Source: a virus. From it: a stretch of 20,884 bases of DNA. The notes beneath the pieces are model-generated. The model saw nothing but the letters and a program-made list of their open reading frames with translations, was not told where the DNA came from and made no database searches. Each line of letters starts with the position of its first letter. The first letter of the stretch is position 1. Below, one piece after another: positions 68 through 20,884 of the stretch. The translations under genes and the position numbers were made by a program. The DNA lies in the IMG/VR virus record IMGVR_UViG_3300010299_003495, positions 1 to 20,884 of that record, one strand, 5' to 3'.

Positions 68-284
68 CGTTTGCTAATCTCCGTAATAAATTTTTAATTT
101 CATTCAAATCATCTTTCATATTAGCAACATCAGACTCTAAATTTTGTATTCTTTGTTGCTCATCTTTTTTTGTTTGTCTACTTGAGACGTACTGCTCATA
201 TTCAGATCTGTTAGTATTAATAATACTATTTGTTCGGGGATCCCTGACTAGGTGATCCCTTCCCTTTACTTTAATATAATCCAT
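57..284 (-). CDS. Small coiled-coil protein, likely virion- or assembly-associated, function unknown
   Basis: This is a 75-residue protein. The N-terminal part (about residues 1-30) is a short mixed region with the motif VRDPRTNSIINTN. Residues about 37-72 are highly charged and have heptad-like hydrophobic spacing (IQNLESDVANMKDDLNEI, then KNLLRRL), predicting a single amphipathic helix or coiled coil. There is no signal peptide or membrane segment. The ATG is one base after the stop of the DUF4815 gene (TAA-T-ATG), so translation by coupling or reinitiation is likely; no separate Shine-Dalgarno is visible. From memory, similar short proteins follow large structural genes in T4-like cyanophages and stay annotated as hypothetical. 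A structural or chaperone role is only inferred from position and coiled-coil character. Confidence 0.85.
   Translation of the reverse strand: MDYIKVKGRDHLVRDPRTNSIINTNRSEYEQYVSSRQTKKDEQQRIQNLESDVANMKDDLNEIKNLLRRLANDES
78..82 (-). promoter_or_regulatory. Shine-Dalgarno-like GGAGA for the left-edge gene
   Basis: The minus strand reads GGAGA here, with 11 nt between it and the ATG at 67-65. It lies inside the coding region of the upstream coiled-coil gene. It supports the choice of that ATG, because the other starts in this window lack an obvious purine-rich site. The spacing is a little longer than the classical optimum. Confidence 0.45.
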
Positions 285-285
285 A

Positions 286-6200: not shown

Positions 6201-7884
6201 AACCAACTTCACCCAAATCTGGTCCAGCATAAACCGACTTAACATCTGCAAAACCATAATTTGTAACTGCGGTTGCTACGCGAGTGTTTTCAATTCCATT
6301 AAAGATGAATGGTTCATTTGCTAAAAACTGACCAACCTGCTCATACACGGTAAGGGCAGTTCCTGCAGAAACAGAACTTCTAAGGAAACCTGTAGCGCCA
6401 CTATACTTTCCTTTGACGAATGAAGGGACTGGAAGACTGATTGGCTCGTTTAATGTAATTTTTGTGAATAATTGTACATCATACAGAGAAAGATCCCACT
6501 GGTTAATATCTGGATTAGCTACGGTATATGAACCAGATTCCAGAGCAAAATCGTATACTCTGGCAACACCAATCTCAGTTCCGGGGGAAGTTAAACTATT
6601 GACACCAACTCTTTGATCTCTTAGACTTACAACATAAGTGTTTCCAAGACCAATCGTAGGATGTCCAGTTACATTGTTAACCATTAACAATGAACCGGTA
6701 TTATAATTAATTGATTGATTTGTTAAGGTTCTGGAAGTTCTTGGTTTAGGAACATCCAGATAAGTGGAGTTTAGAGTTTCTACTTCAAAACCCTTAACAA
6801 ATGCTTTTCCAGGTGATAAAACATAATTTACAAGTTCCTCACTTACAGGATTTCCACCATAAGTGAATTCTCCCTCATTGTAAATACCATTATTTCCAAT
6901 TCTATTATTTAAAGTTTCTCTAATTGAAACGTCAAATGGAGTTACAGTGTAATCTCCAGATTCGGCATATGTTCTTCTTGCCAACTCTCCTGCAATAATA
7001 CTATACTGCGTATTTTTAACCTGAGAGCGTAATTGACCGTCTGTAATAACTGCCAACTCTACAAAGTTGGAGTCATTGAAATCATCTAATGGTTTTGCAA
7101 AAAGAGAAAGAGATATTTTAAGTCTATCTGCTCCAGGAGCAGCATAGTTATTAAATCCTTTTGAATTATCTGTTAAAGACTCGTCTTCGTCTGCATTAAC
7201 AATTTCTTCTTGTATTCTAAGTCCAACTCTAACACTTGGGGTATTAGAATACTGACTTAAAATTATAGTTTCATCAGATACATCAACGAAGTGACCTCTG
7301 ACAAAGTATACACCATTTACAATAGAAAATGCGGATCCTACTGCAGTTGCATTTTCTGAAATGAGAGAAGCAAATGCCTCTCCTGCTGGAATGAATGGAT
7401 TGTTTAAAGGTCCAGTGATGATATCATTATCAGAGGTCAGTAACTCACCATCAGTAAATTCTTTTTGATCATCCTGAGTTCCAGTTGACAGGTATGAAAT
7501 GTAAAGGGTCAAATTTCCTACTTCAGAATCTTCTGGAAGCAGTACTTTAGATACAATTGCAGTTACTCCCGAAGAAAGACCAATTATTCTTCTTCCAATA
7601 AGTTGCTCAGAATAATAAGAGACTGGTATTCCTAAGTGAGTATTATTTAATTGGACAGAATAGTAATCCTGGGAATATGCAGTATTACCAGGAATGACCT
7701 TTGCACCCTCTTTGAAAAAATGTTGCCCAAACTTTTCAATTTGATTTTGAAGAATTGACTGAAGACCAGTTAATTCTCTTGCTTGAACTGGATAACCTGG
7801 CTTGAATAAAACCCTGTAGTAGTTATCCGTTGGATCAAAATCGTCAAAATATGGAGAAACGTTAAGGTTTGTAAGTTGAGCCAT
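286..7884 (-). CDS. DUF4815-type virion structural (baseplate/tail) protein, 2532 aa
   Basis: A large virion protein in the slot that T4 uses for gp9/gp10, directly after gp8. The N-terminus (residues about 12-67) has the family-typical YFDDFDPTDNYYRVLFKPG and QARELTGLQSILQNQIEKFG segments. Residues about 1055-1098 carry YYLGRKDSIFVSKDG and the GEPSETPVKP turn. Residues about 1118-1160 form a predicted coiled coil (YRMQDIRELETRIKNLEYY). Residues about 1320-1335 contain MSPVLWNAWETTWTG. A conserved segment begins at PLAQSFQVED (about 1705) and ends near residue 1865. Then come a Gly-rich block with two GxGY repeats (about 1936 and 1986), a module ending SLRRINKTHR (about 2135-2210), and a C-terminal beta domain (about 2400-2532). 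There is no signal peptide or membrane helix. The ATG (7884-7882) is 6 nt after the gp8 stop and lacks a clear Shine-Dalgarno. Family assignment is by motif recognition; a wedge-periphery or fibre-attachment role is inferred from order. Confidence 0.88.
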   Translation of the reverse strand: MAQLTNLNVSPYFDDFDPTDNYYRVLFKPGYPVQARELTGLQSILQNQIEKFGQHFFKEGAKVIPGNTAYSQDYYSVQLNNTHLGIPVSYYSEQLIGRRIIGLSSGVTAIVSKVLLPEDSEVGNLTLYISYLSTGTQDDQKEFTDGELLTSDNDIITGPLNNPFIPAGEAFASLISENATAVGSAFSIVNGVYFVRGHFVDVSDETIILSQYSNTPSVRVGLRIQEEIVNADEDESLTDNSKGFNNYAAPGADRLKISLSLFAKPLDDFNDSNFVELAVITDGQLRSQVKNTQYSIIAGELARRTYAESGDYTVTPFDVSIRETLNNRIGNNGIYNEGEFTYGGNPVSEELVNYVLSPGKAFVKGFEVETLNSTYLDVPKPRTSRTLTNQSINYNTGSLLMVNNVTGHPTIGLGNTYVVSLRDQRVGVNSLTSPGTEIGVARVYDFALESGSYTVANPDINQWDLSLYDVQLFTKITLNEPISLPVPSFVKGKYSGATGFLRSSVSAGTALTVYEQVGQFLANEPFIFNGIENTRVATAVTNYGFADVKSVYAGPDLGEVGFAKTFTADTIQAEFVNVGIATITPYAASTGISVIRSTNPIFPGTIVRVNDILEYSGNTGNPEKNYARVVSVATTSVEVVGITTVVGVAQGGLPTGSNLSVTDLKVLVTSVQRSEDNTLYTPMPRNLISDVDLTDASINIRRSYTVNISGNQLSSALVAGTNETFLPFDEERYTLIRSNGKTQELTSDRFSYTAGSTIIQINNLGENDTGATLIATLKKSKPTAKIKRVNRVNTIIVDKSKTEGSGIGATTFNDGLIYGNYPYGTRVQDEDICLNRADVVKLLAIYESTNSSAPSAPKMVVSALNGPTAKSSDLVIGERVIGQDSGAVAIVAEKLSDSQISYIPENSLPFKEGEFVSFEESKIQGIVAVLESPSKNVTTAYSFNNNQQGTFYDYSFIQRKRNFKESSRQLKIYFANGYFEASDTGNILTKNSYDTFNYKREIQIVDGYRNTDIIDIRPKTSDYVVQAGSRSPLEFFGRRFDGSGNSVSEILASDEAITTNYSYYLGRKDSIFVSKDGIFQVQYGEPSETPVKPIPIDDALELATVELPAYLLHTNQAQIDFLNNKRYRMQDIRELETRIKNLEYYTSLSLLEQKTENLFIPDQEGLNKFKSGFFVDNFTSFVPQDENKQIKNSIDVQNQELRPSHYTNSIDLMVGPVEGVDPNADRRYLTPEGNGIKKSLDVITLDYVEKEWLKQTFATRTESVTPFLVSFWQASVALTPESDTWVDTARIEAKIINVEGNYSEVMAQQARINNVDPQTGMSPVLWNAWETTWTGTEPGQTIKKIRSEARNPRHIGHIHRPGQPGAIMGTRHITDFEEEYKETVQVGTATRTGVRTVVTPQFDNQSQGDKVVSREIIQFMRSRNVEFVVKKTKPLTQLYAFFDGVNVTKYCVPKLLEIQMVSGVFQVGEKIIGNVRTTPRENNSAVPSIRFRVAQANHREGPYNSPTAIFTNNPYLSQVAATGLETYLGTPGTVQQNNANATILPSTYSSTSTVLNVDTFSLSEQAQGDYYGWVETGMILVGETSGAQATITNVRLVSDLGANLIGSFYIPNPNISSNPRFNTGTKTFTVCNLSTNDQNNADTVGEDKYTASGTLETVQEQIISVRNAKVQQQREGESKQVKRSQGFELTKSTVIRTRSQQVQVGYYDPLAQSFQVEDETGIFLTSCDVFFQTKDDMGIPLTFQLRTMQNGTPTQKILPFSEVVVTPDQINTSQNGTVPTRITFEAPVYLEGGSEYAITLASWSTKYRVFISRVGESDLVTDEFISNQPYLGSLFKSQNASTWEPSQWEDLKFILYRADFVPEGQVQVYNPILSEGNGQVAKLLTDSVNLNSRRIRVGLTSSVTDGIGITTQLSLGNTVIQQGTNATGNFVGSAGIATGALGVINSGIGYTPSLGSFTFTGIGLTNITGTGKNITANVYIENGVALAATVVNSGTGYQVGDVLGIATIGNNSVGRNARFSVVSIASTNEFILDNVQGNFVVGVGKTVQYVNNLGITTTLNSSTGGGVQIDNIEVVSDGLHIEIDHKNHGMYHELNRVVISEVESDIIPTKLSLPYNADSTSNITVNSTENLDTFENVSVGTTYPGYLLIADEVISYTGASGGVISGITRGIDGTVRKNYLAGTPVYKYELGGVSLRRINKTHRLSDVTVSNPLTFDSYNIKLDMSSSGVARTDGVSFPQLYVNQTKSAGGKEIRASQNMPFEIISPNIGNTTVQGTNLTAELRTVSGSSLNDGSGEGIQIPFIDQGFEPINLNKSNYLSSPRIIASRVNETNNTQIQQLPGDRSFNLRLNLSTVDSRLTPVVDTQRMNAVLVSNRVDNLISNYAIDNRVNAFETDPSACIYLSKEINLQESASSIKVLLSAHINEFSDIRVFYALGDKPNFKPIFVPFPGFRNLTPRGEVISLAESDGQSDVFVSRVNSVGTFDSLDLDFKEYVFTATGLPNFKSYRIKINLTSSNQTYPPRIKELRVISLA
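1870..2075 (-). repeat. Two GxGY repeats in the DUF4815 protein
   Basis: The units GVINSGIGYTPSLGSF and TVVNSGTGYQVGDVLGI are 50 residues apart (about residues 1936 and 1986). They sit in a Gly/Asn/Thr-rich block that lies between two well conserved parts of the protein, so they look like an insertion. They match the repeat class seen in the giant protein and in gp8. Confidence 0.7.
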
Positions 7885-7890
7885 AGTTAA

Positions 7891-9441
7891 TTAGAACTGC
7901 AGTATAATTTTAATGTCTTCTTTTTGGCTGGAAGATCTTTTAATCGCTGGTCTATTATCAACATAAATTATATTTCCAGAGTATTTTTTAACTTCTGGAT
8001 TTGAAAGACCATTTACGAAATTCTGACCAAGATAGTATGTTTTATTATTTATTGAGGTAGTGAAACCACTAAAATCAGTGCTGATTGAAAGATTTACACT
8101 TCCACCAATAATTGTCAGACTTCCTCCAGAAGTTGGTGATGAAGTAAATCTAGTGAGATTGTACCCATACTGTGGATTGGTCTGAGCAGTTCCAACAGTA
8201 TTAAAACCTGCAAGAGTTCTATCTTGCCAATATTTTAGAACTCCAGTAGTTTGATCATAACTAACAACTCTACCAACAGCGGTAACTCCTGTTCCTGTTG
8301 TTTGGGTAACAAAAGAATCTTGAGTAAATTTAGCAGAACTGTATCCAACCCCAGCTAAACGTAGTGCATATACAGCACTTGCTTTTTCTGAAGTTAGTTT
8401 CGATGAAGAACCAAAAACTAAAGGATTTTCTACTAATCCAATCCTTGCAATTTCATTGCCGGTAATAAAATCTGGATTTTCTACATCATTTTCTATTCTT
8501 GCATACATTAATACATTTGATGCGCCAAGTTCTTTGTAAACATCATATCCATGACCACCCGATGGGGTCATAATTACGTCAAGAACTGGTTCAGTATCTG
8601 GTTCAGGTATTCCTCCAGCAGAAAGATCAACATTTCCAAATGTATATCCAGATCCTTGGTTGGAAATAGTTACACTTTCAACCTGTTGGTCATTGTTCAC
8701 GACAATAGTACATTCTGCTCCAGTTCCATCACCTCTGATTGGAACTCTCGTATATGTTCTGTTTGCAGTTCCTACTCCAACTCCTCTATTTTTGATTACG
8801 ACAATTTTAATACTACCATCTACAGCGTTTCCTTGAACAGCAGTTGTTTCTGCATTATTGTCCCAATCTTTAGGTACTGGAATAAAATCAACAGTATCAA
8901 ACTTTACAATTTCAGTGGGTTTGATTGTATAAAGATATTTCCAAATATATCCATCTCCACTAGGTCCTGCAGTTCTTGGCTCCAAGTCAACAAATCTTGG
9001 TTCATCTAGAGATGGTTTGCCTTCAGGTGTTTCTGGAGTAGTTCCATTTTGAAGGCAAATATAAACTCTATTGTCACTATTAATTACATAATAATTCGCA
9101 GAGTAGAGAGAAGTTCCGCTAGAATTTGGTGGAGGAGAAGCAACACTATAGTCGTGCCTATAGTAGTCATAAGTTGTTCCTGAAGCCCATATTCTTTTAG
9201 TCACAACTCTCTGAACATCATCAGGAGTTATTTTCTTAAGAGCGATTATAGTGTCCCAAGTATCCCACTCATTGGAAAAATTATCAGTTGGAGCTGGGGG
9301 ATCATCATCCCAATCTTCCTGAATACTTGTTGGATTAGGAAGACCGATAAATGCATAATAAGAATTTAGAGATGTGCTGACACCTGCTGAAAAATTCTTG
9401 GCATTCAGTACCCTAATTTGATCAGTTATAATAGCTGTCAT
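7891..9441 (-). CDS. gp8: Baseplate wedge subunit, T4 gp8-like
   Basis: A 516-residue homologue of the T4 baseplate wedge protein gp8, which joins gp7 in wedge assembly. Three blocks match T4 gp8 as I remember it. Residues about 157-195 have SGDGYIWKYLYTIKP and FIPVPKDW (T4: GDGYVWEYLFEIPP ... YIVVPW). Residues about 325-340 have IARIGLVENPL (T4: FRQISIITNPL). The C-terminus has SGNIIYVDNRPAI followed by a charged stretch ending IKIILQF (T4: SGEMIYMENRPPI ... INILFTF). T4 gp8 is 334 residues, so this copy has about 180 extra. These include a block with ISNQGSGYTFG (about 255-268) and a second between about 345 and 470. The ATG at 9441-9439 is 19 nt after the giant gene and has no obvious Shine-Dalgarno, but a late-promoter-like box lies just upstream. 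Cytoplasmic until assembled. Confidence 0.93.
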   Translation of the reverse strand: MTAIITDQIRVLNAKNFSAGVSTSLNSYYAFIGLPNPTSIQEDWDDDPPAPTDNFSNEWDTWDTIIALKKITPDDVQRVVTKRIWASGTTYDYYRHDYSVASPPPNSSGTSLYSANYYVINSDNRVYICLQNGTTPETPEGKPSLDEPRFVDLEPRTAGPSGDGYIWKYLYTIKPTEIVKFDTVDFIPVPKDWDNNAETTAVQGNAVDGSIKIVVIKNRGVGVGTANRTYTRVPIRGDGTGAECTIVVNNDQQVESVTISNQGSGYTFGNVDLSAGGIPEPDTEPVLDVIMTPSGGHGYDVYKELGASNVLMYARIENDVENPDFITGNEIARIGLVENPLVFGSSSKLTSEKASAVYALRLAGVGYSSAKFTQDSFVTQTTGTGVTAVGRVVSYDQTTGVLKYWQDRTLAGFNTVGTAQTNPQYGYNLTRFTSSPTSGGSLTIIGGSVNLSISTDFSGFTTSINNKTYYLGQNFVNGLSNPEVKKYSGNIIYVDNRPAIKRSSSQKEDIKIILQF

Positions 9442-9457
9442 TTTATTGTTTTTAATC

Positions 9458-9465
9458 TATTTATG
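9458..9465 (-). promoter_or_regulatory. T4-type late promoter-like box CATAAATA before gp8
   Basis: The minus strand reads CATAAATA, one base from the T4 late promoter consensus TATAAATA, which is recognised by the gp55 late sigma factor. It overlaps the TAA stop of the giant gene and ends 16 nt before the gp8 ATG. T4 late promoters have no -35 element, so none is expected. Initiation downstream of it would leave a leader of only about ten bases. An eight-base AT-rich match can arise by chance, but it falls in the largest intergenic gap of the window. Confidence 0.4.
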
Positions 9466-12400
9466 TGCTGTAACCTTGATACCTTAGGCGCTTTGTTCTC
9501 CTTATATAAGGACCTGTTCCTATTCCAGAGAAACCTTTTTTGGTTCTCGCTTCATAGTGATAGAACTTGTTTCTTTCAGACAACTGAACCTTACCCCAAG
9601 TGTATTCTCCATAGAAATTGCTAAATCCAAGTCCAGTTAAGAGGCCATCGTGACTTGTAATACTTACAGTAACTCTTGTTACCGTTGTTACTCCAAATCC
9701 AATAGCAGAAGTCGTGGCTGTAGAAACATTAGCAACACGGTATACATTATCTATAAAGGTTGTTCCAATACCAATAACACCTGTTGATGGATTATTGGTT
9801 TCATCAAGTGAAGTTACTCCAGATCCTACATTTGAATTGAAGACGCAGAAATAATAACCAGTCTGAAGGCCGCTGACAGATGTATAATTTGTGATATTTG
9901 AATTTCTGAGAACAGAATTTTCAGGAATAACTAAATCGAGGTTTAATCCTATAGGAGCTTCTGCAGTAGAAGTTGTTCCAATTCCTGTAATAATTCCAAA
10001 ATCACCCTCATAAGAAATTGAAGTATTTTCCTCTTGAGTGATTGTTGGAGGCGCAATCAATACTAGTGGAGACACCTGATTTGTGTATCCAAAACCAACT
10101 GTAGATCCAACAGAAATTGCAGAAATTGTACCGGCAATTGATACAGTCGCTGTTGCAGTTCCTCTTGCAATTGTTCCTAAACCAACTGGAGTAACTATCG
10201 TCACTTCAGGAGGTTCTGTTGAGGTATAACCAATACCTCCATTTGAAATAGTAAAGTTCTCAAGACCACCAGAATCAGTAACATTAACTGTTGCAGCCGC
10301 ACCCACTTTATCAACTGAGTAATTTACTAATGTAATATCTTTCTGGAAGTTCAAGTTAATCGCACTTTCATTTAATGGATTGAAGAATGGTCTTACGTTA
10401 TCAACGAATACAACGGTTGATCCAATACCAACACTCTTAATAATATTTGCAGTAGGATAAATTTCAGACTCATAGAGTTCGCGGTCCTTGTAAACGTAGT
10501 TACCATTAATAATCTTGTCTTCAGTTTGTTTACGCCACGCAACTGGTCTATAAAGAATAGAGTTTTCACTGAGGCCTGGTCCATAATAAACGTTTGTATT
10601 AACAGAACTTGATGAATTGAGTTCGGTTACAACTCTAGTTGTCTGTTTTTGGAAACTCTTTTGTCCAAGAGTTGGGTGCCAACCAAGAGTTAAAGTATCA
10701 CCAGTCTTGACTGTTGTAACAACATCTTTGTCAAATACATCAGTTCCACTAGTTCCACGATAGAACATAAACTTCAGAGAATCTCCAGACTTCGGTGCTT
10801 CTTCGAAAGTTATATTACTTCCCCCACCAAATGGACCTCTTCTATTTTCAATGAAGAAGTATGAAACTCCAGGAACTTGTAAAACATCATTAATGAACAC
10901 TAAAAGTACATCTTCAATGTTTACCAAAGAACCAATGTCTGATTGGAGAGACAACTGCTCTCCAGAACGTGTGATTGGGAAGGTTTTTCTCTTACCATCA
11001 AATAGATTAGAGAAATCATCGAGAACTTCAATTTCTCCAAGTGTCCAGGCAGAGAAACTATCAGTGTTTGTTTCAATAATTTCTAATTGGAATTCTCTAA
11101 ATGTTCCAATTCCTGTTGTAGGAATTCCCGTAGATCCTCCAATTGGAACGGTAAGAATGTGGTTCAGACCATATCCGTGACCAAAATTTGTAATACTAAA
11201 ATCAATTACACTAGAACCTTGTCCAACTGTAATAGTTGCTTTAGCGCCGGTTCCACCACCACCAACAGAAGAAGAACTATACTCCAAAGGTACGTGTGCA
11301 TATGGGATAGGAGCATCAATAATAACATCTGGTGGATTTGTTGAAGTATAACCAGATCCTGGATTAGTAACTACAACACTCACAATATGTCCATTACTTA
11401 TCGCTGCTGTACCAATAGCAGTCAAATTAGGAGTTCCTCTAGAAGAAACCGCAACACTAACATTTACTGTTGTTTGAATTCCAGATCTATATCCAGAACC
11501 ACTGTTTCCAATAGAAATTGCCTGGATTGTTCCTGCAGCAGAAACAATAGCGGTTCCTCCAGCAGCTACAATTGGTTGATATCCAAATCCAGTTGTTCCT
11601 GAAACAGAAACAATAACACCACCAATTGGAACATTAAGGTCATTTGGTTCATATGCTATTGTGCTTGCAGCACCTGTGAAAGTTACAGAAGTAATTCCAG
11701 AAGTTTCAGTTAAATTATAGTCTCTAGTTGCTCCAGGACCTTGGAATATGCCATTAATTAAGAGAACGCCATTGAAAGTTGATACTCCAATTATATTTGC
11801 TCCACTTACAGTTAACGAATATGAATTTTTAGATCCAGAGAAATTTTGTGAAATATCGTCAAAGATGTAGTTCTTGGAATAAGTTTCCGAAGAACTGCCA
11901 ACAACACCAGATCTCATAAAGGATCTTCCGCTAAATGTAGAGGATGATGTGATACCAGTGAAGTCTCTTTGATCGGTTGGACCAACACTTGTTCCTATTG
12001 GACTTCTTCCAAATGGTGCATCAAGGAAACTCAAAGTGCTTCCAACAATATTATAGTCACCTCTGAGTTTAGTAATTGTTGTTCCAGATGAATGCCCAAC
12101 CAAAGAAGTTCCAGCAAGAGCACGAGTTAATTTAATTGCATTTGTGCTTCCAATACCAACTCCCTGGATCTTCATAATTTCATTGCCAATCTGGACCGAA
12201 TCTCCTCCAAAGAAAGAAGTAATTCCAGAAAAATATGCAATATCCTGAGTGGTTCCAAAGTTATCTACAAGAGAACTTGTTACCGTTGTCTCAGAAAGAG
12301 GTGATTGAATTTGATTGTCAATTGAGATTAATACCTTGTTCTTTTGTTTCGTTGCAGTAATGACGTGAGAAGTTCCAATTCCAACAGAAGTGAACTGAAG

Positions 12401-15400
12401 TGCGATTGGATTAACTCTTAAAGCATTTTCTGCAGTTGAAGCTAACTGAATCTTTTTCTCATCGAGTTTAATAACAAATGCAGTTTCTGGTAATTTGTCA
12501 GTAAGTCCAATTCCAGAAATTGTGGTTGCAGCAATACCAATTGCATTAGTTGAGAAACCAGTTGTGCAAGAATATCTAACTTCCTCTCCACTTACAAAGT
12601 AGTGATTTGGAATGAAAATTGAATTGTCTGTAGTATCAACAACAGAGGAATTAGAGCCATCAAACACTCTCAAGAAGATTGGTTTATCCTTATGTGTTAA
12701 GAAGAAGTCTTTCTTAACATCAACTTCTGTTCCAGTGTATACTGAGAAAGAATCATCAACAGCAATATTACTGAGATCAACTTCACTTATAACATTTGAT
12801 GTTGATTCAGTATCTCTTAATGAATGCATTAAGAGATTAACGTGAACGTTAATTCCTGGATTTGGAGTAAATGTTATCTCAGTAGTGTCTCCTGTTCTTA
12901 ATCCGCCAAAGGTTCCAAGTCCAGAATTTGTTTCAAGAGTTCCATATTCTGTTAGATATACGTCATTGTCATCATCAATAACAATAAGTTCTGATAATTG
13001 ATAATTTCCATTTGTAGTATCTGAAACTTGGACTAAACAATATGCTCCATCAAATGCATTAATAAAACTTACAACTCCAACTGCGTTTGGTGAGCCTGAA
13101 GCACCAATTGTTGTTGTTTTTGCTGTAAGACTTGCATTTGCGAGAGTTACTGTTCCCAGTCCAGTATAAGACTCTGAAGATAATCCAACAACAATACTGT
13201 TGACAACTACTGTTGATATTCCTGGAAGAGCATCAAAACTTACAATTACATTTGATCCCGACAAATATGCATTATAAGTTCCCAATCCAGTAGCAGAAAA
13301 TGCATCTTGGGAATGAACACTAAGTTGACCATATTCAAGAAGTTCAACTTCAGTGCCATCGTGAATAATATTCAATTCATCATATTCAATTTGACCATCG
13401 CTAGATTCTGCTAAAACTAAAATCTTAGCAGATCTTGTGCAAGAGACGGTAGTTCCAATTCCAGAGAGTGTTGCAAGAGTAACTGTACTTCCGCCACCAA
13501 CAGAAATACTAGAAGATGCCAAACTTACCAATGAGCCAGTAGATCCTGTCGATTCTGCAATTGTTGTACTTCCTATTGCAGCGACAGCATCGCCAACCTT
13601 ATCCATACTATATGATATTGTAACAATGTTATAATTGTTTAGTCTAAATTTGGTTGGGTAGAACCTCAATACAGAATCACTACCTTCGACAACAGAGTCA
13701 AATGAACCCAAATCTAAAACGGGATCCAAACGACCATATTGATTGATCATCGACAAACCACGAACAGTGTCGCTGAGTGTTGTCACCATCAGCATCTGTC
13801 TTTCTTGAGTGAATAATCTATCTTTGATATATGTTACGAATTTCTGGGCACTTGCTTCTGAAAGTGACCTTCTGAAGACTTCAGTAAATGGCGTTGGTCT
13901 TGGCTCACTGTTGAAGAGATAACTAACATCATCCATTCTCAGAACTCTATTTGTGATAGATTCTGAATAGTCTGTAAGAATTCTAGTTGTAAAGTTTATT
14001 TCATCAGAGAAAGATACTTCACCGTTTGTCAAATAATTTTCGTGAACTAAGTCATAGTTGAAATATGAGTTTAAATCATAGAAACTATCAAGTTTAACAA
14101 TGATGCTTGTCCCATCAATAGATGATGGGGTCATCTTTACTGTTGGAGTTGATTCAACCTGAAGGTCGCTGAATTTTCTAAAACCACTGGTGTGATTCAA
14201 TCTACTAACAATGTTATTCCATTTTTCATATGGAATAGAAGATTTGATTGAATATGAGAAGTTTTGATAGTATTCATTATCGTGAACTTTCTGGAGTTGA
14301 TTGTTTAAAAATCCAGTTGTGTACTCCCAACCATTTTCTGTAACTGAGAAGAAATCTAACTTGTACTTGGAATCGAAGGCAATTCTCTCTTTAACAAGGC
14401 CTTTAGCTCCCGTTATGGTTGATTTTAATTCGGTTCCAACTTCAAAATCATCATCAGACTCAACAACCAAATATTTACTTTCTGCATCTAATGTATAAAC
14501 TACACCTTGAGAAACTCCATCGGTAATAGTATCAAGTTGCCTGAATTCAAAGGTCTTAAGTTTTGGATCAAATTGTGGGAAATAATGTGAAGGAACTATA
14601 ACACCAGAAGAATTTCCAGTATCGTATACTCCTGGAGATTCTCCTTCATCCAAAATACTAGCCATACTGAAAGTAACAATTCCAATACCACCAAGGTTTG
14701 GATGTGTTTTTGTTACAGTAAATAGAGTATAATCGTAATTTGATGAGTTATATCCAAGTCCAGTAGAACCAACACCAACACTAGTATTTTCAATTAGAAC
14801 CTTATCATTTACAGAGAATGGGAATCCAACACTAAAAGAGTCTCTGAGAGTAACAGTTACATCTTTTGTTGTGGAATCAAAAGTCATATTTGAAATTCTG
14901 ATTCCGTTTGAATTTTGTACGGGAATAATTGATGGTGTTATATTAGAAAGACTAAAAGTATTTCTAACTATTGATAAAGTTTCTTGATTAAAATTGTATC
15001 TGATATCAATGTCTTGAATTTGTTTCTTAGTTCTTCCATCAATTACAACCAGTTTTGGTTCAACAGAGTAGTTTCTTCCAAATGAGGTTACCCCAACTCT
15101 ATCAAATCCTGCGAGTTGTTCTATTCTGAGAATTTGAGGTATCTTTGCGTCAGGACTTAAAGTTCTATCTGCAGGATAGTCAAAACCAATATTTTGTATG
15201 GTGCTCTTTTCAATTTTGCCAATTGTTTTACTTGAAGCTTCAAGAATCGCTCCAGTTCCTGTTAAGGATGTTACTGTTGAAATTCCAGGAACTCTGCTAT
15301 ATCCCTTTCCTCTATTATTAAGAATAACTCTGGTTATAGCGCCATATGCAGTTAAAGAATCTGTCTGATAGTCTAAGTTTGATTCTGTTGAATTGTATTG

Positions 15401-18400
15401 ACCTCTCTCGGGGTATTTTGGTAAACCATATGTAAATGTATTCGGGGAGGTTTTGATAATATCATACTCTCCACTATACGCACTATTCTCAGAAATGAGT
15501 TCATTGTGCAAATCAATAGTTGGATCAATTACAATTTCTCTATTAATTTGGGGGTTATCTGGAGTATTGAGTGGAAGAAGACGATAGTAAAGAACAGGTG
15601 GAGTGAATTCATCAATATTAACAGTAACTTTTGCGTCAGCGGTTACTCCGACAGTTCCAGTTCTAGTAACATCAAATGCTGTTCTTTCGGAACTAGTTTC
15701 GTATGCGTTTTTGAAGTTGGAATCTGTATACAGTTCAAATTTGAATGCAGGATAGCGAAGTCCGCTAACATCATATGACAATGACAAATCAGTTAAGTCA
15801 AAGTTTAAAACCGAATTTTTATATACTCTGATTGGTGGATTGATCGGTAAAATAGTTCCAGATGAAGAAGATGTGATTGATATAATTTCGGGTATCTTCT
15901 TAATTGCATCATACCTAGTCTTCGTCAATTTTATATTATTTCTATCAACAACATATACATAATATTCTTTATCACTTTCAAGACCACCAGAAGGTGTTGC
16001 TGATGTGTGAATTATTTTTTGTCCATTAACTAACTTGTGATCAGCAATATTGATTGTGCTTGTTGACGTAATTACATTTCCAGAAGTAAATGCAATGCCA
16101 GTAGTGACAAGTTTGCGGTTTGGTTGATTGTACTTGATATTAAATGTTGTGGATATTGAGGGATTAACGTCAATAAAGACGGTATCTCCATTGAATAATC
16201 CATGAGTTCCTGCAGCAGAAACAGTTACTAAATTCTTCTCAATATTTCCTGTTACTGTTGTTGGATAAGAAATCTTGAAACTATGAATAGAACCAGTTCC
16301 AACACCAACAAAATATAATAATCCTTGGTGTGAAGAAGTTGATGCAATGCCAACAAAAGTTCCAGTTGTTCCAAGACCAACTCTTACCGTAGAAAGACCG
16401 ATGGTGTCATCATTTAACTTGGCTACAAAGAGAGATGAGTGATTTGTAAGAGGTATTGAAGAACCACCACTAACTGTTGATACTCCGATTGTATCTCCGC
16501 CATTTGTTTGGTATGTAATTATATCACCAGTTTCAAATCTGTGCTTCGGAAGATATATTGCTCTAGAAGAAACAAAATATTGAGTCAATCCAACACCGGG
16601 ATTTGAGAATGATAATGTTACCCCAGCACCAACGCCAACTCCAACAGATTCCGCTGGATTAAAATAATATTCTCTATTTCTATTGGGGTTAAATGAAGTT
16701 GTATATCCAACATTAAATGTAAATCTTCTTGGAAGTTGTGTTGCTTCTGAGAAAATTGTATGTGCTGCTGAAACTGTTCCATTTACAGCTCTTAAAACCC
16801 TTACTCTAGATGAAATCGGATCAATATTCAGTACTTTAACATCTTCATCATCAATTCTGATAAAATCATTTACTTGGAGATTATCTTGACTTAGATTTCC
16901 AAGTAATGAGAAGTATGTTACAATTCCAGTAACATCAGAACCCGCAGATATTTCTCTATTGATTTTAAATTTGCTGGTGCTAACTCCGATTCTGCGTGGA
17001 CCTTCTAAGAATGTTGTTGTTGTGGATAATCCAGAAATATTTAAAATATCTTGATTTATAAATCCGTGGTTGCCAGTATAAACCCCAACAAACTCTCCAA
17101 CATTTAAAGTTGGATAAAATTCTATATTTGTAAGTCTGGAATTCGTTACCGATAATGTTCCAATTCCTACACCAAGAACTCTGGAAACTTTTGCAGCAGC
17201 AAAAAATCCATCTAAAGGATCCTGTTCAAATGCTACCCTATCATTAACTTTATAATTAGAACCACCAGTAATAATTCCGACAGAATCGACAGATCCTTTT
17301 CTTACGTGCTTAATTACTGAATCTTGATTTACATATTTGTAAGACTGGCTTACATAATCATATCCACTATTTTTGCCTCTAAGAGCATATGGATACGTAT
17401 TTCTAATCCAATTAGTTTCATTTAAGTCAATGCTATCTTGGTTTGATTTTTTCCTAAAATTAAATTGATTTGGTTTTGAATTATAGTACTTTCCAATCAA
17501 ATATGGGAAAACTGGGGTTTTGAAATTTTTAAAGGTTCCGTCTGAGGCTGGAGTTGCATCAAGGGTAGCAAAGTATGCATAAGTTCCATTTGGATAATCT
17601 GGGGTAACGCAAAATCTTCCATTATTCTCATCAAGAACCGCTTCATCGATTGAGTTTGTCCAAGTATAATCTTCAACAAAGAAACCTTCTGGGAAAGCAC
17701 TCAACGGAGGTCTATTTTGCTTCAGATCGAGTGTATATCCAGACTTCATCTGAACAATAGTCCCGCCAGATTTTGTCGCATATCCAAAAGGTCCATATAT
17801 TGGATGGCCATCATAAGACCATCCTATAATAGGAGAGTGATTATCATTTCTGATTTGTTCTACGCCATCAATAACGGTTAAGTCTTTTTTACCATAAAGA
17901 ATTTTTCCGCCCTGATCAGTAGCATATATTGATTGTCTTAGTTTTCTTGGAACATAAACGTAAGAACACTGAAGTTCATTGTCTACATTTGTGCCTCTTG
18001 CAACAAAAACATCATCTTCGGTTAAATTTGTTAAATTTTTCCTAAATTCATTTACTTTCCAAGACTGTAGGTTGAAACTGAATACAGCACCAAATCCAGA
18101 AGGTTCTACTGTAACTGTAGTCGTTGAAACACCATAACCAATTCCTGCCTGATTAATTTTTACAGACTTTATAGTGCCAGCGAGAGGTCTTCCCTGAGAA
18201 TCTACTCCAGGACCTAATTCGGGAACTAAAATAGCACCGGTCCCATTTCCGGTGTCTTTAACAACAAGTCTTGGTGGAGAACTGTAACCAAATCCAGAGT
18301 TTTCTACAATTGCATCAATAATCTTTCCGGTTCTTGGATCGACTATTGCAGAAATTTCTGCATCTTGACCCGATAAAAAGTCAATCTCAGGCCATCTTTG

Positions 18401-20884
18401 CAAATTAAGAACTTCTGAAGATCCATAACCAACACCTTTATTTGAAAGGTGAATAGAGGTCATTTCTCCACGTACTATAGGTTGCAAAACAGCATGGAAG
18501 TTATTCCCTTCAATAGATGATATTCCTACAGATCCAAACAGTTCGACTTTAATTTCTGGATAGTTGAATGTATGTGTACCAACTCCAACATTTGTTAAGT
18601 TCTCAAATTGCTTTGTCTTATAATAAAAATCTGTAGAAGTGGTTCCTACTCCAGCAACAGATAGTTTAAATTTATCCTTATCTACTACAGTTACATAATA
18701 TTGCTTCTCTGTAGAAAGACCAGTAACCGCAGTGCCATCTACAGAGTATGTTACAATCTCTCCGTTTTTATAATCGTGGTCAACTATGTTAATAGTATCT
18801 AAGGAAGTAATAATGCCAACTGTACCACAAGTCCTCTTTTTAGTCTGATATCCTTCACCTGGATCGGTAAGAACTACAGTATTTAAAATTGCCTTTCCAT
18901 TTAACGAATTCAAAGAATGATATCCAATACCATAATCTGTGATAACTACGGTATTGATGCCAGTTACAACATCATTCAAATTCTTGTATAATTTGACTGT
19001 CTGAGGGTCAACAACCGACACGAAATATGTTGCACCTGTAGATAGACCTGCGAGAGCCTTTTTACCAAAAGTCTTATAAACTACCCTCTCACCATTTCTA
19101 AATTTATGGTGAGTAGAAAAACCAATTCTTCCAATTGTTCCAGTCGATCCAATTCCAATTGAACCAATTCCAGTAGAATTAAAAGTTACCTCATGAGCAA
19201 CCGTAACTAATTTTGCAGTTGCTGTTGCTGGTCTAATTGGATTACCGCCAGATATTTTTATTGTCGGCACATCAATATAATCAAATCCGGGATCTAAAAC
19301 CCTAATTTCATCAAACTTACCAGTAATTGCTGGATATCCAGTTGCTCCACTACCAACAGCAAATCCCTCTTCGTTGACATCTTTAATTCTCAAAAGAGGT
19401 GGACTAACAACATCATAATTCCTTCCACCAGAAACCACCTCAATTTTTTCAATTCTTCCGTAGTATAAAGTGTCTCTAGATTTATAGTTTAAAATCTCTA
19501 CACCATTAATTAAAATTCCAGTATATCCTGCTGGAGTTTCCGTTCTCTGGTTGTCAACAATCGGATCAGAAATTTCTCTAAGCAATTTCTGTGGTTTTAT
19601 GATTCTCCCTTTAAAAGTGTATTTTTCAACTGTATGATTGGATATTGATGCTGATGGTATTGACAGGGAAACAGTAGCAAAAATATTATTATACAAATTT
19701 GATGTACTTTTTGCTAACTTGATATTATTTTCATCAATTCTCTTTACAAAATACAATCCTTCAGAGAGACCAATGCTACTGAGTAGATTGCCTTCGGAGT
19801 CCTTTTCGGGAGTATAATAAACAGAATCTCCAGTGTAATAATTATGGTCTACTCTATCTGTAATTTTAAAGGTATCATCTCCTGCAATATATGTACCACC
19901 GAATGTATACTTTTGGAGTTTGGGATTTAATTTAAATCCAGCAAAAGCTGGCAGCGAAGGAGAAGCAATAAGATTTTTTCCTTGATCAATATAAACGTTC
20001 TGAACGTTCGCTGTAACTTCATTTAAGTTAGTGTGTAGGTCAGAATCGCATTTGGAAAGAACTCTGGTAACTCTTCCAATTTTTGTTGGGTCCGATACTC
20101 CAAATCCTCTAATTAAACAAGTATTTTCATTAAAGATTTCTTGTACAATAAATCCAAATATAGTTTGGCTTTCATTATCAGTTAAACTTAAATTGTCTCC
20201 AATTCTAAGTAAATTATTATCTTTGGTAACTAACCTGTACGTGCCGTTAACAGCATCGATAAGGGTCATTGAACTTACTTCATAATATGGAGCAGTGTTA
20301 AACAACCAATTGTTTGCTCTTACATCATTTTCTGCAATTCTTCCAAGAGACTTAATCTTAATTCTCGATCCTATTTTCTGGTTATGCGTGTTTGCTGGAA
20401 CATCAAGTTCATTTAATACTGATCTAATTTTTACACGAATTCCATCCGTTCTTCCTAAACCTGCAGAATATGCATATGTATTTTGATCAATGTCAGTACC
20501 ATCAGCAATAGACGCTACAATACCAGAAACTCCCAAGAATTGGTTAACAGTTTTTGATGAATATGTTACTACACCTGCTGTAGTATTTCCATAAGTAAAA
20601 GATAATGTTCCAGTTTGTGGAAATCCTAGAGTAGAATCGACAGTGATGAATGTTTGTCCGACACCAACTTCTCCAATTGTTTTTGACTTTGCATGAACAG
20701 AGAATTGGTCATATAATAAATCGGAAGTTCCTGTGTTTTGAATGTAGGAACCATCAATTCCTAATCTATAATAAGTATCTGTTAAAATACCAACTGTAAT
20801 TCTTTCTACATTTGCAACAGGAGAAGACGCTCTCGGAATGTTTTCAAATGCATCTTGAAATAGTGTATTATTGACGAGATCGAA
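9461..20884 (-). CDS. Giant virion structural protein, gp7-position baseplate wedge candidate (N-terminus outside window)
   Basis: One uninterrupted frame of at least 3807 residues. I translated the 116 codons from 20537 to 20884 and found no stop; they encode structural-type sequence (GQTFITVDSTLGFPQTGTL, VNQFLGVSG). The apparent TTG start at 20536 is therefore an internal Leu codon, and the real start is beyond the edge. Counting from the edge codon: three H-x-F-x-x-G modules (about 343-743), GxGY repeats (about 813-921), a YHYH domain (about 1018-1110), more H modules (about 1446 and 1614), a segment resembling the T4 gp7 C-terminal part (about 2137-2245), a tandem pair (about 2481-2693), GxGY clusters (about 3095-3243, 3546-3600), and a basic C-terminus ending YIRRTKRLRYQGYST. 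No membrane or signal segment is seen. Position before gp8 equals that of T4 gp7 (1032 aa), so a greatly expanded gp7 equivalent is my inference. The structural assignment is firm; the exact wedge role is less so. Confidence 0.9.
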   Translation of the reverse strand, partial: FDLVNNTLFQDAFENIPRASSPVANVERITVGILTDTYYRLGIDGSYIQNTGTSDLLYDQFSVHAKSKTIGEVGVGQTFITVDSTLGFPQTGTLSFTYGNTTAGVVTYSSKTVNQFLGVSGIVASIADGTDIDQNTYAYSAGLGRTDGIRVKIRSVLNELDVPANTHNQKIGSRIKIKSLGRIAENDVRANNWLFNTAPYYEVSSMTLIDAVNGTYRLVTKDNNLLRIGDNLSLTDNESQTIFGFIVQEIFNENTCLIRGFGVSDPTKIGRVTRVLSKCDSDLHTNLNEVTANVQNVYIDQGKNLIASPSLPAFAGFKLNPKLQKYTFGGTYIAGDDTFKITDRVDHNYYTGDSVYYTPEKDSEGNLLSSIGLSEGLYFVKRIDENNIKLAKSTSNLYNNIFATVSLSIPSASISNHTVEKYTFKGRIIKPQKLLREISDPIVDNQRTETPAGYTGILINGVEILNYKSRDTLYYGRIEKIEVVSGGRNYDVVSPPLLRIKDVNEEGFAVGSGATGYPAITGKFDEIRVLDPGFDYIDVPTIKISGGNPIRPATATAKLVTVAHEVTFNSTGIGSIGIGSTGTIGRIGFSTHHKFRNGERVVYKTFGKKALAGLSTGATYFVSVVDPQTVKLYKNLNDVVTGINTVVITDYGIGYHSLNSLNGKAILNTVVLTDPGEGYQTKKRTCGTVGIITSLDTINIVDHDYKNGEIVTYSVDGTAVTGLSTEKQYYVTVVDKDKFKLSVAGVGTTSTDFYYKTKQFENLTNVGVGTHTFNYPEIKVELFGSVGISSIEGNNFHAVLQPIVRGEMTSIHLSNKGVGYGSSEVLNLQRWPEIDFLSGQDAEISAIVDPRTGKIIDAIVENSGFGYSSPPRLVVKDTGNGTGAILVPELGPGVDSQGRPLAGTIKSVKINQAGIGYGVSTTTVTVEPSGFGAVFSFNLQSWKVNEFRKNLTNLTEDDVFVARGTNVDNELQCSYVYVPRKLRQSIYATDQGGKILYGKKDLTVIDGVEQIRNDNHSPIIGWSYDGHPIYGPFGYATKSGGTIVQMKSGYTLDLKQNRPPLSAFPEGFFVEDYTWTNSIDEAVLDENNGRFCVTPDYPNGTYAYFATLDATPASDGTFKNFKTPVFPYLIGKYYNSKPNQFNFRKKSNQDSIDLNETNWIRNTYPYALRGKNSGYDYVSQSYKYVNQDSVIKHVRKGSVDSVGIITGGSNYKVNDRVAFEQDPLDGFFAAAKVSRVLGVGIGTLSVTNSRLTNIEFYPTLNVGEFVGVYTGNHGFINQDILNISGLSTTTTFLEGPRRIGVSTSKFKINREISAGSDVTGIVTYFSLLGNLSQDNLQVNDFIRIDDEDVKVLNIDPISSRVRVLRAVNGTVSAAHTIFSEATQLPRRFTFNVGYTTSFNPNRNREYYFNPAESVGVGVGAGVTLSFSNPGVGLTQYFVSSRAIYLPKHRFETGDIITYQTNGGDTIGVSTVSGGSSIPLTNHSSLFVAKLNDDTIGLSTVRVGLGTTGTFVGIASTSSHQGLLYFVGVGTGSIHSFKISYPTTVTGNIEKNLVTVSAAGTHGLFNGDTVFIDVNPSISTTFNIKYNQPNRKLVTTGIAFTSGNVITSTSTINIADHKLVNGQKIIHTSATPSGGLESDKEYYVYVVDRNNIKLTKTRYDAIKKIPEIISITSSSSGTILPINPPIRVYKNSVLNFDLTDLSLSYDVSGLRYPAFKFELYTDSNFKNAYETSSERTAFDVTRTGTVGVTADAKVTVNIDEFTPPVLYYRLLPLNTPDNPQINREIVIDPTIDLHNELISENSAYSGEYDIIKTSPNTFTYGLPKYPERGQYNSTESNLDYQTDSLTAYGAITRVILNNRGKGYSRVPGISTVTSLTGTGAILEASSKTIGKIEKSTIQNIGFDYPADRTLSPDAKIPQILRIEQLAGFDRVGVTSFGRNYSVEPKLVVIDGRTKKQIQDIDIRYNFNQETLSIVRNTFSLSNITPSIIPVQNSNGIRISNMTFDSTTKDVTVTLRDSFSVGFPFSVNDKVLIENTSVGVGSTGLGYNSSNYDYTLFTVTKTHPNLGGIGIVTFSMASILDEGESPGVYDTGNSSGVIVPSHYFPQFDPKLKTFEFRQLDTITDGVSQGVVYTLDAESKYLVVESDDDFEVGTELKSTITGAKGLVKERIAFDSKYKLDFFSVTENGWEYTTGFLNNQLQKVHDNEYYQNFSYSIKSSIPYEKWNNIVSRLNHTSGFRKFSDLQVESTPTVKMTPSSIDGTSIIVKLDSFYDLNSYFNYDLVHENYLTNGEVSFSDEINFTTRILTDYSESITNRVLRMDDVSYLFNSEPRPTPFTEVFRRSLSEASAQKFVTYIKDRLFTQERQMLMVTTLSDTVRGLSMINQYGRLDPVLDLGSFDSVVEGSDSVLRFYPTKFRLNNYNIVTISYSMDKVGDAVAAIGSTTIAESTGSTGSLVSLASSSISVGGGSTVTLATLSGIGTTVSCTRSAKILVLAESSDGQIEYDELNIIHDGTEVELLEYGQLSVHSQDAFSATGLGTYNAYLSGSNVIVSFDALPGISTVVVNSIVVGLSSESYTGLGTVTLANASLTAKTTTIGASGSPNAVGVVSFINAFDGAYCLVQVSDTTNGNYQLSELIVIDDDNDVYLTEYGTLETNSGLGTFGGLRTGDTTEITFTPNPGINVHVNLLMHSLRDTESTSNVISEVDLSNIAVDDSFSVYTGTEVDVKKDFFLTHKDKPIFLRVFDGSNSSVVDTTDNSIFIPNHYFVSGEEVRYSCTTGFSTNAIGIAATTISGIGLTDKLPETAFVIKLDEKKIQLASTAENALRVNPIALQFTSVGIGTSHVITATKQKNKVLISIDNQIQSPLSETTVTSSLVDNFGTTQDIAYFSGITSFFGGDSVQIGNEIMKIQGVGIGSTNAIKLTRALAGTSLVGHSSGTTITKLRGDYNIVGSTLSFLDAPFGRSPIGTSVGPTDQRDFTGITSSSTFSGRSFMRSGVVGSSSETYSKNYIFDDISQNFSGSKNSYSLTVSGANIIGVSTFNGVLLINGIFQGPGATRDYNLTETSGITSVTFTGAASTIAYEPNDLNVPIGGVIVSVSGTTGFGYQPIVAAGGTAIVSAAGTIQAISIGNSGSGYRSGIQTTVNVSVAVSSRGTPNLTAIGTAAISNGHIVSVVVTNPGSGYTSTNPPDVIIDAPIPYAHVPLEYSSSSVGGGGTGAKATITVGQGSSVIDFSITNFGHGYGLNHILTVPIGGSTGIPTTGIGTFREFQLEIIETNTDSFSAWTLGEIEVLDDFSNLFDGKRKTFPITRSGEQLSLQSDIGSLVNIEDVLLVFINDVLQVPGVSYFFIENRRGPFGGGSNITFEEAPKSGDSLKFMFYRGTSGTDVFDKDVVTTVKTGDTLTLGWHPTLGQKSFQKQTTRVVTELNSSSSVNTNVYYGPGLSENSILYRPVAWRKQTEDKIINGNYVYKDRELYESEIYPTANIIKSVGIGSTVVFVDNVRPFFNPLNESAINLNFQKDITLVNYSVDKVGAAATVNVTDSGGLENFTISNGGIGYTSTEPPEVTIVTPVGLGTIARGTATATVSIAGTISAISVGSTVGFGYTNQVSPLVLIAPPTITQEENTSISYEGDFGIITGIGTTSTAEAPIGLNLDLVIPENSVLRNSNITNYTSVSGLQTGYYFCVFNSNVGSGVTSLDETNNPSTGVIGIGTTFIDNVYRVANVSTATTSAIGFGVTTVTRVTVSITSHDGLLTGLGFSNFYGEYTWGKVQLSERNKFYHYEARTKKGFSGIGTGPYIRRTKRLRYQGYST
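11155..11600 (-). repeat. GxGY repeat cluster in the giant protein, C-terminal third
   Basis: Four units at roughly 35-55 codon spacing: TTGFGYQPIVAAGG, NSGSGYRSGIQTTVNV, NPGSGYTSTNPPDVII and NFGHGYGLNHILTV. Between them the chain alternates Gly-Thr-Ala-rich turns with Ile/Val strands (TAIVSAAGTIQAISIG, GHIVSVVV). Two more units follow at about 10083-10245 (NGGIGYTSTEPPEVTI and VGFGYTNQV). The arrangement suggests a beta-repeat stalk. Confidence 0.75.
12805..13440 (-). repeat. Tandem pair of about 85-residue units in the giant protein
   Basis: Unit one (13440 to 13170) contains EYDELNIIHDGTEVELLEYG and GLGTYNAYLSGSNVIVSFD, ending PGISTVVVNS. Unit two (13065 to 12805) contains QLSELIVIDDDNDVYLTEYG and GLGTFGGLRTGDTTEITFT, ending PGINVHVN. 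The alignment is collinear, with a core of L-x-x-x-x-D-x-x-x-V-x-L-x-E-Y-G followed by G-L-G-T-F/Y. They are separated by about 35 residues. The divergence suggests an old duplication or a family of inserted domains. Confidence 0.75.
14150..14472 (-). other. Segment resembling the T4 gp7 C-terminal region, inside the giant protein
   Basis: Visible residues about 2137-2245. It starts VVESDDDFEVGTELKST-type sequence, passes a short module with GAKGLVKE, then reads DNEYYQNFSYSIKSSIPYEK followed by WNNIVSRLNHTSGFRKF. T4 gp7, recalled from memory, has IIVQSDSLTEDLVGQTIY, then SRSYYVMKIKSNLPSSRWKS and VIRFVHPVGFGFI in the same order and spacing. The shared pattern is an acidic-Ser strand, V-G-x-x-x, then Y-x-x-x-I-x-S-x-x-P/I-x-x-x-W ... 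H-x-x-G-F. Downstream conserved structural sequence (RLDPVLDLGSFDSV, VLRFYPTKFRLNN) continues to about 13590. Confidence 0.55.
17580..17835 (-). other. YHYH-type domain within the giant protein
   Basis: The segment begins IIGWSYDGHPIYGPFGY (about visible residues 1018-1036) and continues through YTLDLKQNRPP, GRFCVTPDYPNGTYAYF. The G-W-S-x-D-G-H-P-I-Y-G-P-F-G-Y signature and the downstream C-x-T-x-D-Y-P-N-G-T-Y-A-Y-F match the YHYH family as I know it, a domain of unknown function found in bacterial secreted proteins and in some marine phage structural proteins. The preceding residues (VYVPRKLRQ, GKKDLTVIDG) may belong to the same domain. Its activity is unknown. Confidence 0.75.
18120..18445 (-). 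repeat. GxGY repeat cluster in the giant protein, N-terminal third
   Basis: Three units follow each other at intervals of about 45-50 codons: NKGVGYGSSEV, NSGFGYSSPPRLVV and QAGIGYGVSTTTVTV. Each is preceded by an Ile/Val-rich strand, and the second leads into a Gly-rich turn (GNGTGA). The pattern is that of short beta repeats. It lies directly before the YHYH domain. Confidence 0.75.
18655..19855 (-). repeat. Three copies of an H-x-F/Y-x-x-G-x-V-x-Y ... Y-F-V-x-x-V/I-D module in the giant protein
   Basis: Protein-level repeats. Copy one (19855 to 19688) contains DHNYYTGDSVYYTP, GLYFVKRIDENNIKL. Copy two (19118 to 18968) contains HHKFRNGERVVYKT, GATYFVSVVDPQTVKL. Copy three (18785 to 18655) contains HDYKNGEIVTYSVDG, KQYYVTVVDKDKFKL. 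Each is about 43-57 residues and looks like a small beta unit. Divergent copies occur further downstream at about 16375-16545, 15897-16041 and 12420-12611, with shorter remnants near 17055 (NHGFINQDIL) and 16195 (THGLFNGDTVF). Function is unknown; structural spacer or ligand-binding roles are both possible. Confidence 0.75.

Follow-up and report, generated by a model that had tools for sequence, protein, structure and literature searches.

A giant gp7 baseplate wedge protein with a split core and three gp9-like domains in a cyanophage-related virus record

We examined a 20.9-kb virus record (IMG/VR IMGVR_UViG_3300010299_003495, 20,884 nucleotides; the whole stretch is called the window here), which carries three long genes, all on the minus strand, and whose nearest annotated relatives are marine cyanophages, assigned to the Kyanoviridae where they have been classified. 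One of the three genes encodes a giant protein that we are confident is the cyanophage baseplate wedge protein gp7 enlarged by insertion, with a core split into two halves and with added chains that likely contribute an outer rim and fibre or receptor parts. The open reading frame (9461-20884, minus strand) runs for 3807 residues without a stop and is open at its 5' end. Window residue 1 corresponds to residue 249 of a complete relative, L015 (4060 amino acids [aa]), and the complete giant gp7 would have about 4,055 aa, 3.9 times the length of T4 gp7 (1032), much as the initial annotation of this DNA had estimated when it put the protein at nearly four times gp7. The protein is matched by phrog_2885, "baseplate wedge subunit" (E 0), and its orthologues in relatives are annotated in GenBank as gp7 or baseplate wedge initiator (4,156 residues in S-SM2), so that an oversize gp7 is already known as an annotation in these relatives. 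The gene and its principal parts are as follows (residue numbers are those of the window protein unless another protein is named).

9461..20884, minus strand: giant gp7, the baseplate wedge protein (5' end lies beyond the window)
20756..20884, minus strand: tail end of the first half of the gp7 core (window residues 1-43; start of T4 domain V, ~T4 780-813)
14450..20755, minus strand: ~2,100 residues inserted into the gp7 core (window residues 44-2145; ends approximate)
14159..14449, minus strand: second half of the gp7 core (window residues 2146-2242; T4 819-895; profile score 39.6)
13595..13900, minus strand: beta-sandwich like the T4 gp9 C-terminal domain, copy 1 (residues 2329-2430; AlphaFold [AF2] model)
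13160..13435, minus strand: gp9-C-like domain, copy 2 (residues 2484-2575; profile)
12815..13063, minus strand: gp9-C-like domain, copy 3 (residues 2608-2690; profile)

The comparisons drew on 40 complete relatives from IMG/VR (3,978-4,864 residues, with start codons chosen by a simple rule). The family alignment was made without the near-copies L046, L053, L075 and L076 and without the divergent S-RIM8, P-SSM7 and S-PM2, and the structure alignment (A1) used 50 of 80 relatives. The first half of the core lies at the N terminus, and all but its last 43 residues are upstream of the window. When the family profile of L015 residues 1-350 was aligned with T4 gp7 using hhalign, L015 186-291 matched T4 726-813 (Prob 96, E 4e-9) with a score of 78.2, against a maximum of 29.8 among 300 column-shuffled T4 profiles. 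When 20 sliding windows of the family were run against the T4 gp7 family profile, only two, which overlap at the N terminus, were high (Prob 96 and 72); the remaining 18 gave Prob <=1.3, and the two of these that cover the second half picked T4 864-889 at Prob <1. A short stretch of the relative S9220 (187-218) is 56% identical to T4 727-758 (E 2e-6), and a hidden Markov model (HMM) of the first half recovered T4-family gp7 from 2,884 frames at E 4e-8 to 1e-5. The region of the KGT-type motif that marks the gp7 core and Pfam family PF23786 (Baseplate_wedge) is present in the complete relatives, and the cut-off of that family (27) is passed by L009, a relative 85% identical (31.2 bits), and by S-SM2 (28.6).

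The second half was compared with T4 through a profile built from window residues 2120-2300 together with relatives (59 rows, of which 45 remained after filtering), which joins giants, phiM12-like and Desulfovibrio proteins and leaves out L084 and S-PM2, both missed by the motif pattern. Against the T4 gp7 family, window 2146-2242 aligned with T4 819-895 (score 39.6, Prob 46, E 2e-4), and 300 column-shuffled T4 profiles gave a mean of 16.2, a standard deviation of 3.0 and a maximum of 29.1. The initial annotation, which had recognised a gp7-like core in the giant protein and had proposed a gp7 profile as the check, is borne out in this main claim by these matches, both halves lying above their shuffled nulls. 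The second-half motif of the gp7 core, YY..FSY.IKS...W...HT.GF, is present, and phrog_26741, which acts as a bridge for this half, matches window 2185-2287 (E 3e-8). A 586-aa protein of Desulfovibrio phage 7757 also bridges the halves, with E 7e-8 for its match to T4 645-888 and E 4e-9 for that to window 2186-2291; a pattern search of viral contigs found no relatives of it. Both halves occurred in order in all nine cyanophage gp7-slot proteins tested, namely those of S-SM2, SynMITS9220M01, P-SSM7 and S-RIM8 and the five that took no part in building the second-half model (S-CREM2, ACG-2014f, S-CAM9, S-SSM7 gene 101 and S-PM2).

The initial annotation had also paired three motifs, starting at window residues 2140, 2209 and 2228, with motifs of T4 gp7. 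The IKSSIPYEKWNN and HTSGF pairs hold, since FSYSIKSSIPYEKWNN with YYVMKIKSNLPSSRWKS and RLNHTSGFRKF with RFVHPVGFGF are matched in the profile alignment above the null. Its pairing of FEVG with VGQTIY was mistaken: FEVGTEL (window 2147) aligns with T4 LIAGQEV (820), and T4 VGQTIY (782) belongs to the alignment of the first half, where it faces the window's first few codons. PHROG families 4406 and 701 are filed as head and packaging, although they have matches to the core of gp7 and to the present baseplate protein.

The distance between two core motifs, one in each half, shows where the protein has grown. It is 127 residues in T4, 126 in Aeh1 and 155 in Desulfovibrio phage 7757, rises to 851-969 in the phiM12-like proteins (6 of 14 measurable), and reaches 2,218-2,454 in the clade of the window (measured in 38 of 45 giants, every one from this clade). 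In P-SSM7, positions 165-221 and 235-280 of PF23786, which nearly adjoin in the family model itself, are matched ~2,730 residues apart in one frame. One hinge of the core takes the insertions, from 127 residues between the motifs in T4 to more than 2,700 in P-SSM7. The extra mass of the giant consists of one insertion inside T4 domain V and of a C-terminal extension, ~1,550 residues following the second core half.

A predicted structure points to the same hinge in the phiM12-like proteins. By sequence, phiM12-like gp7 aligned with T4 643-830 with no long break and showed a weak further match at T4 850-892. The model of L137, a phiM12-like gp7 of 902 residues (mean predicted local distance difference test [pLDDT] 66), had as its top Protein Data Bank (PDB) match the T4 baseplate entry 5iv5, chain BJ (1,004 residues; E 8.9e-6), followed by 9f4a_A0 and 5hx2_A; the matched entries contain gp7, and 5hx2_A is named gp7. 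T4 763-853 was covered by 90 aligned residues spread over model positions 129..830 (Z 10.0), so domain V would be interrupted there, and the insertion in phiM12-like gp7 appears to sit in the domain V region that matches that of the giant.

Two side observations concern the N-terminal region. P-SSM7 and S-RIM8 have an extra insertion between pieces of the first half (residues 118 to 603 and 119 to 606, respectively). A module from near the N terminus of the giant (model positions 59-125) is found again in a structural protein of P-SSM7 (L157:32454-36581) and late in S-PM2 gp7 (L158:23160-23453), and so may be another mobile module.

The C-terminal extension begins, directly after the core, with three gp9-C-like domains, which are new here. 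An AF2 model of window residues 1900-2500 (mean pLDDT 65) places copy 1 at model positions 430-531, and this predicted domain superimposes on residues 182-284 of T4 gp9 (1qex_A) with Z 11.8 and a root-mean-square deviation of 2.2 Å over 98 residues (VIA); Foldseek likewise returned T4 gp9 as the top PDB match of the model (E 5.3e-3, prob 1.00). Membership of copies 2 and 3 in the gp9 C-terminal domain fold comes from profiles: against the T4-family gp9 profile they scored 24.3 and 35.3 in hhalign, over null maxima of 20.7 and 22.7, respectively, each from 200 shuffles, which we regard as weak to moderate matches. Copies 2 and 3 are homologous to each other (Prob 98, E 9e-15), and copy 1 shows a weaker relation to both (Prob 50-75). 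An HMM of copy 3 found the gp9 C terminus in 7 of 27 T4-family gp9 proteins (E<0.01, with Z set to 100), that of T4 itself not being among them, and its sole T4-family matches in the 2,884 frames were two gp9 proteins (E 0.011 and 0.014). Exactly three copies were present in 43 of 43 clade members tested, a count that includes near-identical rows and 39 sequences used to build the models; three matches likewise occur in the more distant ACG-2014f (E 7e-3, 2e-5 and 2e-5), which lies outside the models. No copy was found in gp7 of S-CREM2, S-CAM9, S-SSM7, P-SSM7, S-RIM8 or S-PM2. The window protein has no match to PF07880, the family of the gp9/gp10 N-terminal domain; the giant contains gp9-C-like domains and is not itself a gp9. 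The same AF2 model also matched ubiquitin E1 enzymes at model residues 94-201 (VIA Z 7-8), which we set aside as a common arrangement.

Several observations count against our reading of the protein. Direct comparison of the window protein with T4 gp7 by blastp, that is, with no profiles, gave E 0.41, and the second-half HMM found no T4-family gp7 at E<=1 in the 2,884 frames; the second-half similarity to T4 is weak unless profiles are used on both sides. The AF2 model has pLDDT <50 over most of the second half (model 273-430). PF23786 scores under its cut-off in L015 (25.2), a search of the records with this family misses T4 and SynMITS9220M01 and passes the cut-off only in phiM12, and the window protein is not matched by PF23786 and passes no gp7-type Pfam cut-off. 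No counterpart was found for T4 gp7 residues 1-640, the sliding profiles giving no match above Prob 1.3 there, nor for domain VI, there being no Gp7_6th match in the window protein by Pfam. For the gp9-like domains, copy 1 scored at null level against gp9 in hhalign (13.8), and the T4-family gp9 HMM misses the copies in the giant gp7s. Finally, every structural role that we assign to the giant gp7 is one that we infer. The T4 N-terminal domains and domain VI are not matched, and the giant is therefore a gp7-core protein, not a Straboviridae-type gp7.

With these points weighed, we propose that the two pieces of one ancestral core (T4 726-813 and 819-895) would refold together into the part of the wedge that lies beside gp6 and gp8. 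A chain of ~2,100 residues would exit and re-enter this core inside T4 domain V, carrying GxGY modules and a YHYH domain, and a second chain of ~1,550 residues would exit at the C terminus, beginning with the three tandem gp9 C-terminal-type domains. We infer that, most likely, the added chains make up the rim on the outside of the wedge in the virion, where they would hold or replace the fibres and receptor-binding parts that T4 makes from separate gp9-gp12. Among the papers listed in searches of an open-licence library, none describes the split core or the triplet in its title or in the displayed beginning of its abstract, and PMC6224464 yielded nothing on this gene.

What the triplet does is the point on which readings differ most. 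A passage of PMC3004832 describes T4 gp7 as a monomer present in 6 copies and gp9 as a trimer present in 18, with the N-terminal domain of gp9 binding gp7 and its C-terminal domain attaching the long tail fibre. Three gp9-C-like domains per gp7 chain would match the three gp9 chains per gp7 in T4, and one giant chain might then be a covalent pseudo-trimer that provides its own socket for a trimeric fibre and dispenses with gp9. We hold this full socket reading to be rather unlikely. A better prospect, to which we give only slightly less than an even chance, is that the three domains, belonging to a beta-sandwich type widespread in phages, act as adhesins or spacers and not as fibre sockets, and that the likeness to gp9 reflects only a shared common module; we consider adhesins more likely than full sockets. 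The same module ends two other proteins, the tail-fibre-like SSM2_107 (L003:36122-37786) and the S-PM2 protein 086, a 1,251-aa virion protein (L158:34666-38421), and the T4-family gp9 HMM that misses the copies of the giant does match the C terminus of SSM2_107 (E 8e-4). Further structures matched by copy 1, at Z 8 to 9, are tailspikes and tail fibres, and matches of the module in the viral library include unrelated phages and giant viruses. Against a merely generic likeness, the VIA score of copy 1 with gp9 exceeds that of the next row by about 3 Z units (11.8 vs 8.9, then 8.6), and a scan along the window with seven T4 proteins (gp6, gp8, gp9 and gp10 as families; gp11, gp12 and wac as single sequences) gave a score over 30 for gp9 alone, in its C-terminal domain. 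None of the other six scored above 28, the highest being gp8 at 27.7, near window residues 218-260.

We also considered whether the gp9-C copies built into gp7 and a gp9-like gene elsewhere strictly complement each other. PF07880 was found in none of four complete or large records with the triplet (S-SM2, SynMITS9220M01, the 175-kb L053 record and ACG-2014f) and in three of six cyanophage records lacking it (present in P-SSM7, S-RIM8 and S-SSM7; absent in S-PM2, S-CAM9 and S-CREM2); phiM12 has neither triplet nor PF07880. Five IMG loci (L026, L029, L039, L072 and L078) have the triplet together with a gene with a gp9/gp10-like N terminus directly after gp7, so the swap is not strict, and we rejected it as a rule. 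In L039, L072 and L078 gp8 follows this gene; in L026 and L029 gp8 was not found. L081, too, has a gene related to these.

The position of the gene agrees with its identification as gp7. In the window it lies directly upstream of gp8, as T4 gp7 does, a placement correctly noted in the initial annotation and supported by a match of the neighbour (7891-9441) to PF09215 (E 2.7e-14). Upstream, gp6 lies outside the window; annotated relatives have gp6 or a wedge gene there, with the synteny gp25-gp6-gp7 followed by gp8, and S-SM2 shows the order gp25, gp6, giant gene, gp8, VrlC, three small genes, gp13-gp15. In 64 loci with a visible gp7 end, gp7 and gp8 were adjacent in 43 of the 53 in which both were found; the other 10 have a gap of 1.4-4.2 kb. 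T4 gp7 itself is represented by phrog_964, which matched a single place in 8 of 9 records including T4, inside the gp7-slot frame in 7 of the 8 non-T4 records; S-PM2 gave no match, and the same search also matched 1 of 14 control genomes. A separate gp7 gene, which the initial annotation had named as a finding that would count against its reading, was thus not found by phrog_964 in the eight non-T4 records, and the giant occupies the wedge position between gp6 and gp8 with no second gp7. In S-SSM7 (L162, 7656-26750) two genes carry the gp7 label, separated by a gp9-like gene; only the first has the gp7 core by these models, so the label of the second looks wrong.

A statement in PMC7029224 has T4 gp7 absent and apparently substituted by VrlC, and a passage of PMC3037559 places gp7 with the non-cyanophage core genes. 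On that account gp7 would have been lost, VrlC would have taken its role, and the gp7 label would be positional only; that published statement and the shortness of the direct sequence similarity to T4 gp7 speak for it. It is nevertheless very improbable in our view, because phiM12 has a 1,007-aa gp7 with the core plus a protein annotated VrlC-like, so VrlC need not be a substitute, because the core profiles match above every shuffle, and because both core halves recur in order in the cyanophage gp7-slot proteins, five of the nine being outside the second-half model. As far as sequence comparison goes, replacement of gp7 by VrlC is not supported. Least probable of all is the anatomy first proposed, one continuous gp7 block in the middle of the protein with additions on both sides: the second-half motifs do lie mid-protein, but the first half is at residues 1-300 of the complete relatives, apart from the second.

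The core is thus two halves with motifs ~2,250 residues apart and not one buried block. The thousands of added residues that the initial annotation had placed on both sides are found after the core (~1,550) and inside it (~2,100); no counterpart was found for T4's first 640 residues, and therefore nothing has been added in front. The suggestion in the initial annotation that the baseplate may be larger or decorated is a reasonable one.

Virion data come from phages other than that of the window. Table 3 of PMC10665884 reports the gp7-slot protein of S-CREM2 virions with 91 unique peptides; this protein has 1,937 residues, both core halves and almost no C-terminal extension. Table 1 of PMC9146016 lists, from mass spectrometry of virions of the cyanophage S-SZBM1, a 6,619-residue protein named baseplate wedge initiator, with 71 peptides.

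The remaining features of the window are the other additions to gp7 and the two neighbouring genes.

17552..17860, minus strand: YHYH domain within the insertion (window residues 1009-1111; PF14240, E 2.8e-23, above cut-off)
18086..18526, minus strand: run of GxGY-type modules (window residues 787-933)
18794-18931, 19235-19366, 15248-15400, 11117-11590 and 10043-10327, minus strand: other GxGY modules in the giant gp7
9464..12814, minus strand: remaining C-terminal extension with GxGY modules (residues 2691-3807; no Pfam family found)
7891..9441, minus strand: gp8 baseplate wedge protein
286..7884, minus strand: VrlC/DUF4815 structural protein, a neighbour of gp7 rather than part of it (PF16075, E 2.8e-58)

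At E<0.01, GxGY modules matched 15 times in the giant gp7 and twice in the neighbouring gp8, with no match in VrlC or in T4 gp6, gp7, gp8, gp10 and gp12. The two modules of gp8 (residues 196-274) lie inside a stretch (191-482) that could not be aligned with T4 gp8, which has 89 residues there. When ten segments of the window were searched against Pfam, only the YHYH domain was above cut-off; window 18656-18802 gave a weak match to an endosialidase beta-barrel (18.5 bits vs a cut-off of 35). A direct sequence search of the whole giant protein against solved structures returned no match. VrlC is annotated at the equivalent gene position in S-SM2. In L060 (~3423-4382 and 4318 on) the gp7 frame is broken and the N-terminal core lies in a separate 320-residue frame, through either an assembly error or a frameshift.

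Set beside known systems, the giant shares with T4 gp7 (Straboviridae; PHROG 964; Pfam Gp7_helical, Gp7_5th and Gp7_6th, from which the domain names used here are taken) the position between gp6 and gp8 and the core at T4 726-813 and 819-895. T4 gp7 differs in its 640-residue N-terminal part, of which no equivalent was found in the giant, in the close spacing of its motifs and in lacking the C-terminal extension. The Kyanoviridae giants SSM2_097 of S-SM2 and SynMITS9220M01_083 (PHROG 2885) are orthologues, 41 and 50% identical to the window protein, with the same gene order, size class, domains and three gp9-C-like copies; we saw no difference in kind. The 14 Sinorhizobium phage phiM12-like gp7 proteins (902-1,307 aa) resemble the giant in having the core halves at two ends with an insertion between them, but the insertion is shorter, only 56-87 residues follow the second motif in 13 of the 14, and no gp9-C-like copy was found in gp7 of phiM12 or L137. 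T4 gp9, whose C-terminal domain corresponds to the fold of copy 1 and to the profile matches of copies 2 and 3, is an independent protein that forms trimers and includes an N-terminal domain of its own, whereas the giant has three copies in one gp7 chain.

How these marine cyanophage baseplates hold fibres and sense the host is not deducible from T4, since in S-SM2 and SynMITS9220M01 the stretch from gp7 to gp13 has no gene annotated as any of gp9-gp12, and neither record has a PF07880 match. The location of gp7, its growth at one hinge, and three candidate domains for fibre attachment or host contact can now be named. If the full socket reading is true, growth by insertion at one hinge of the gp7 core would be the way in which these ocean phages brought the tasks of gp9-gp12 together in one wedge protein.

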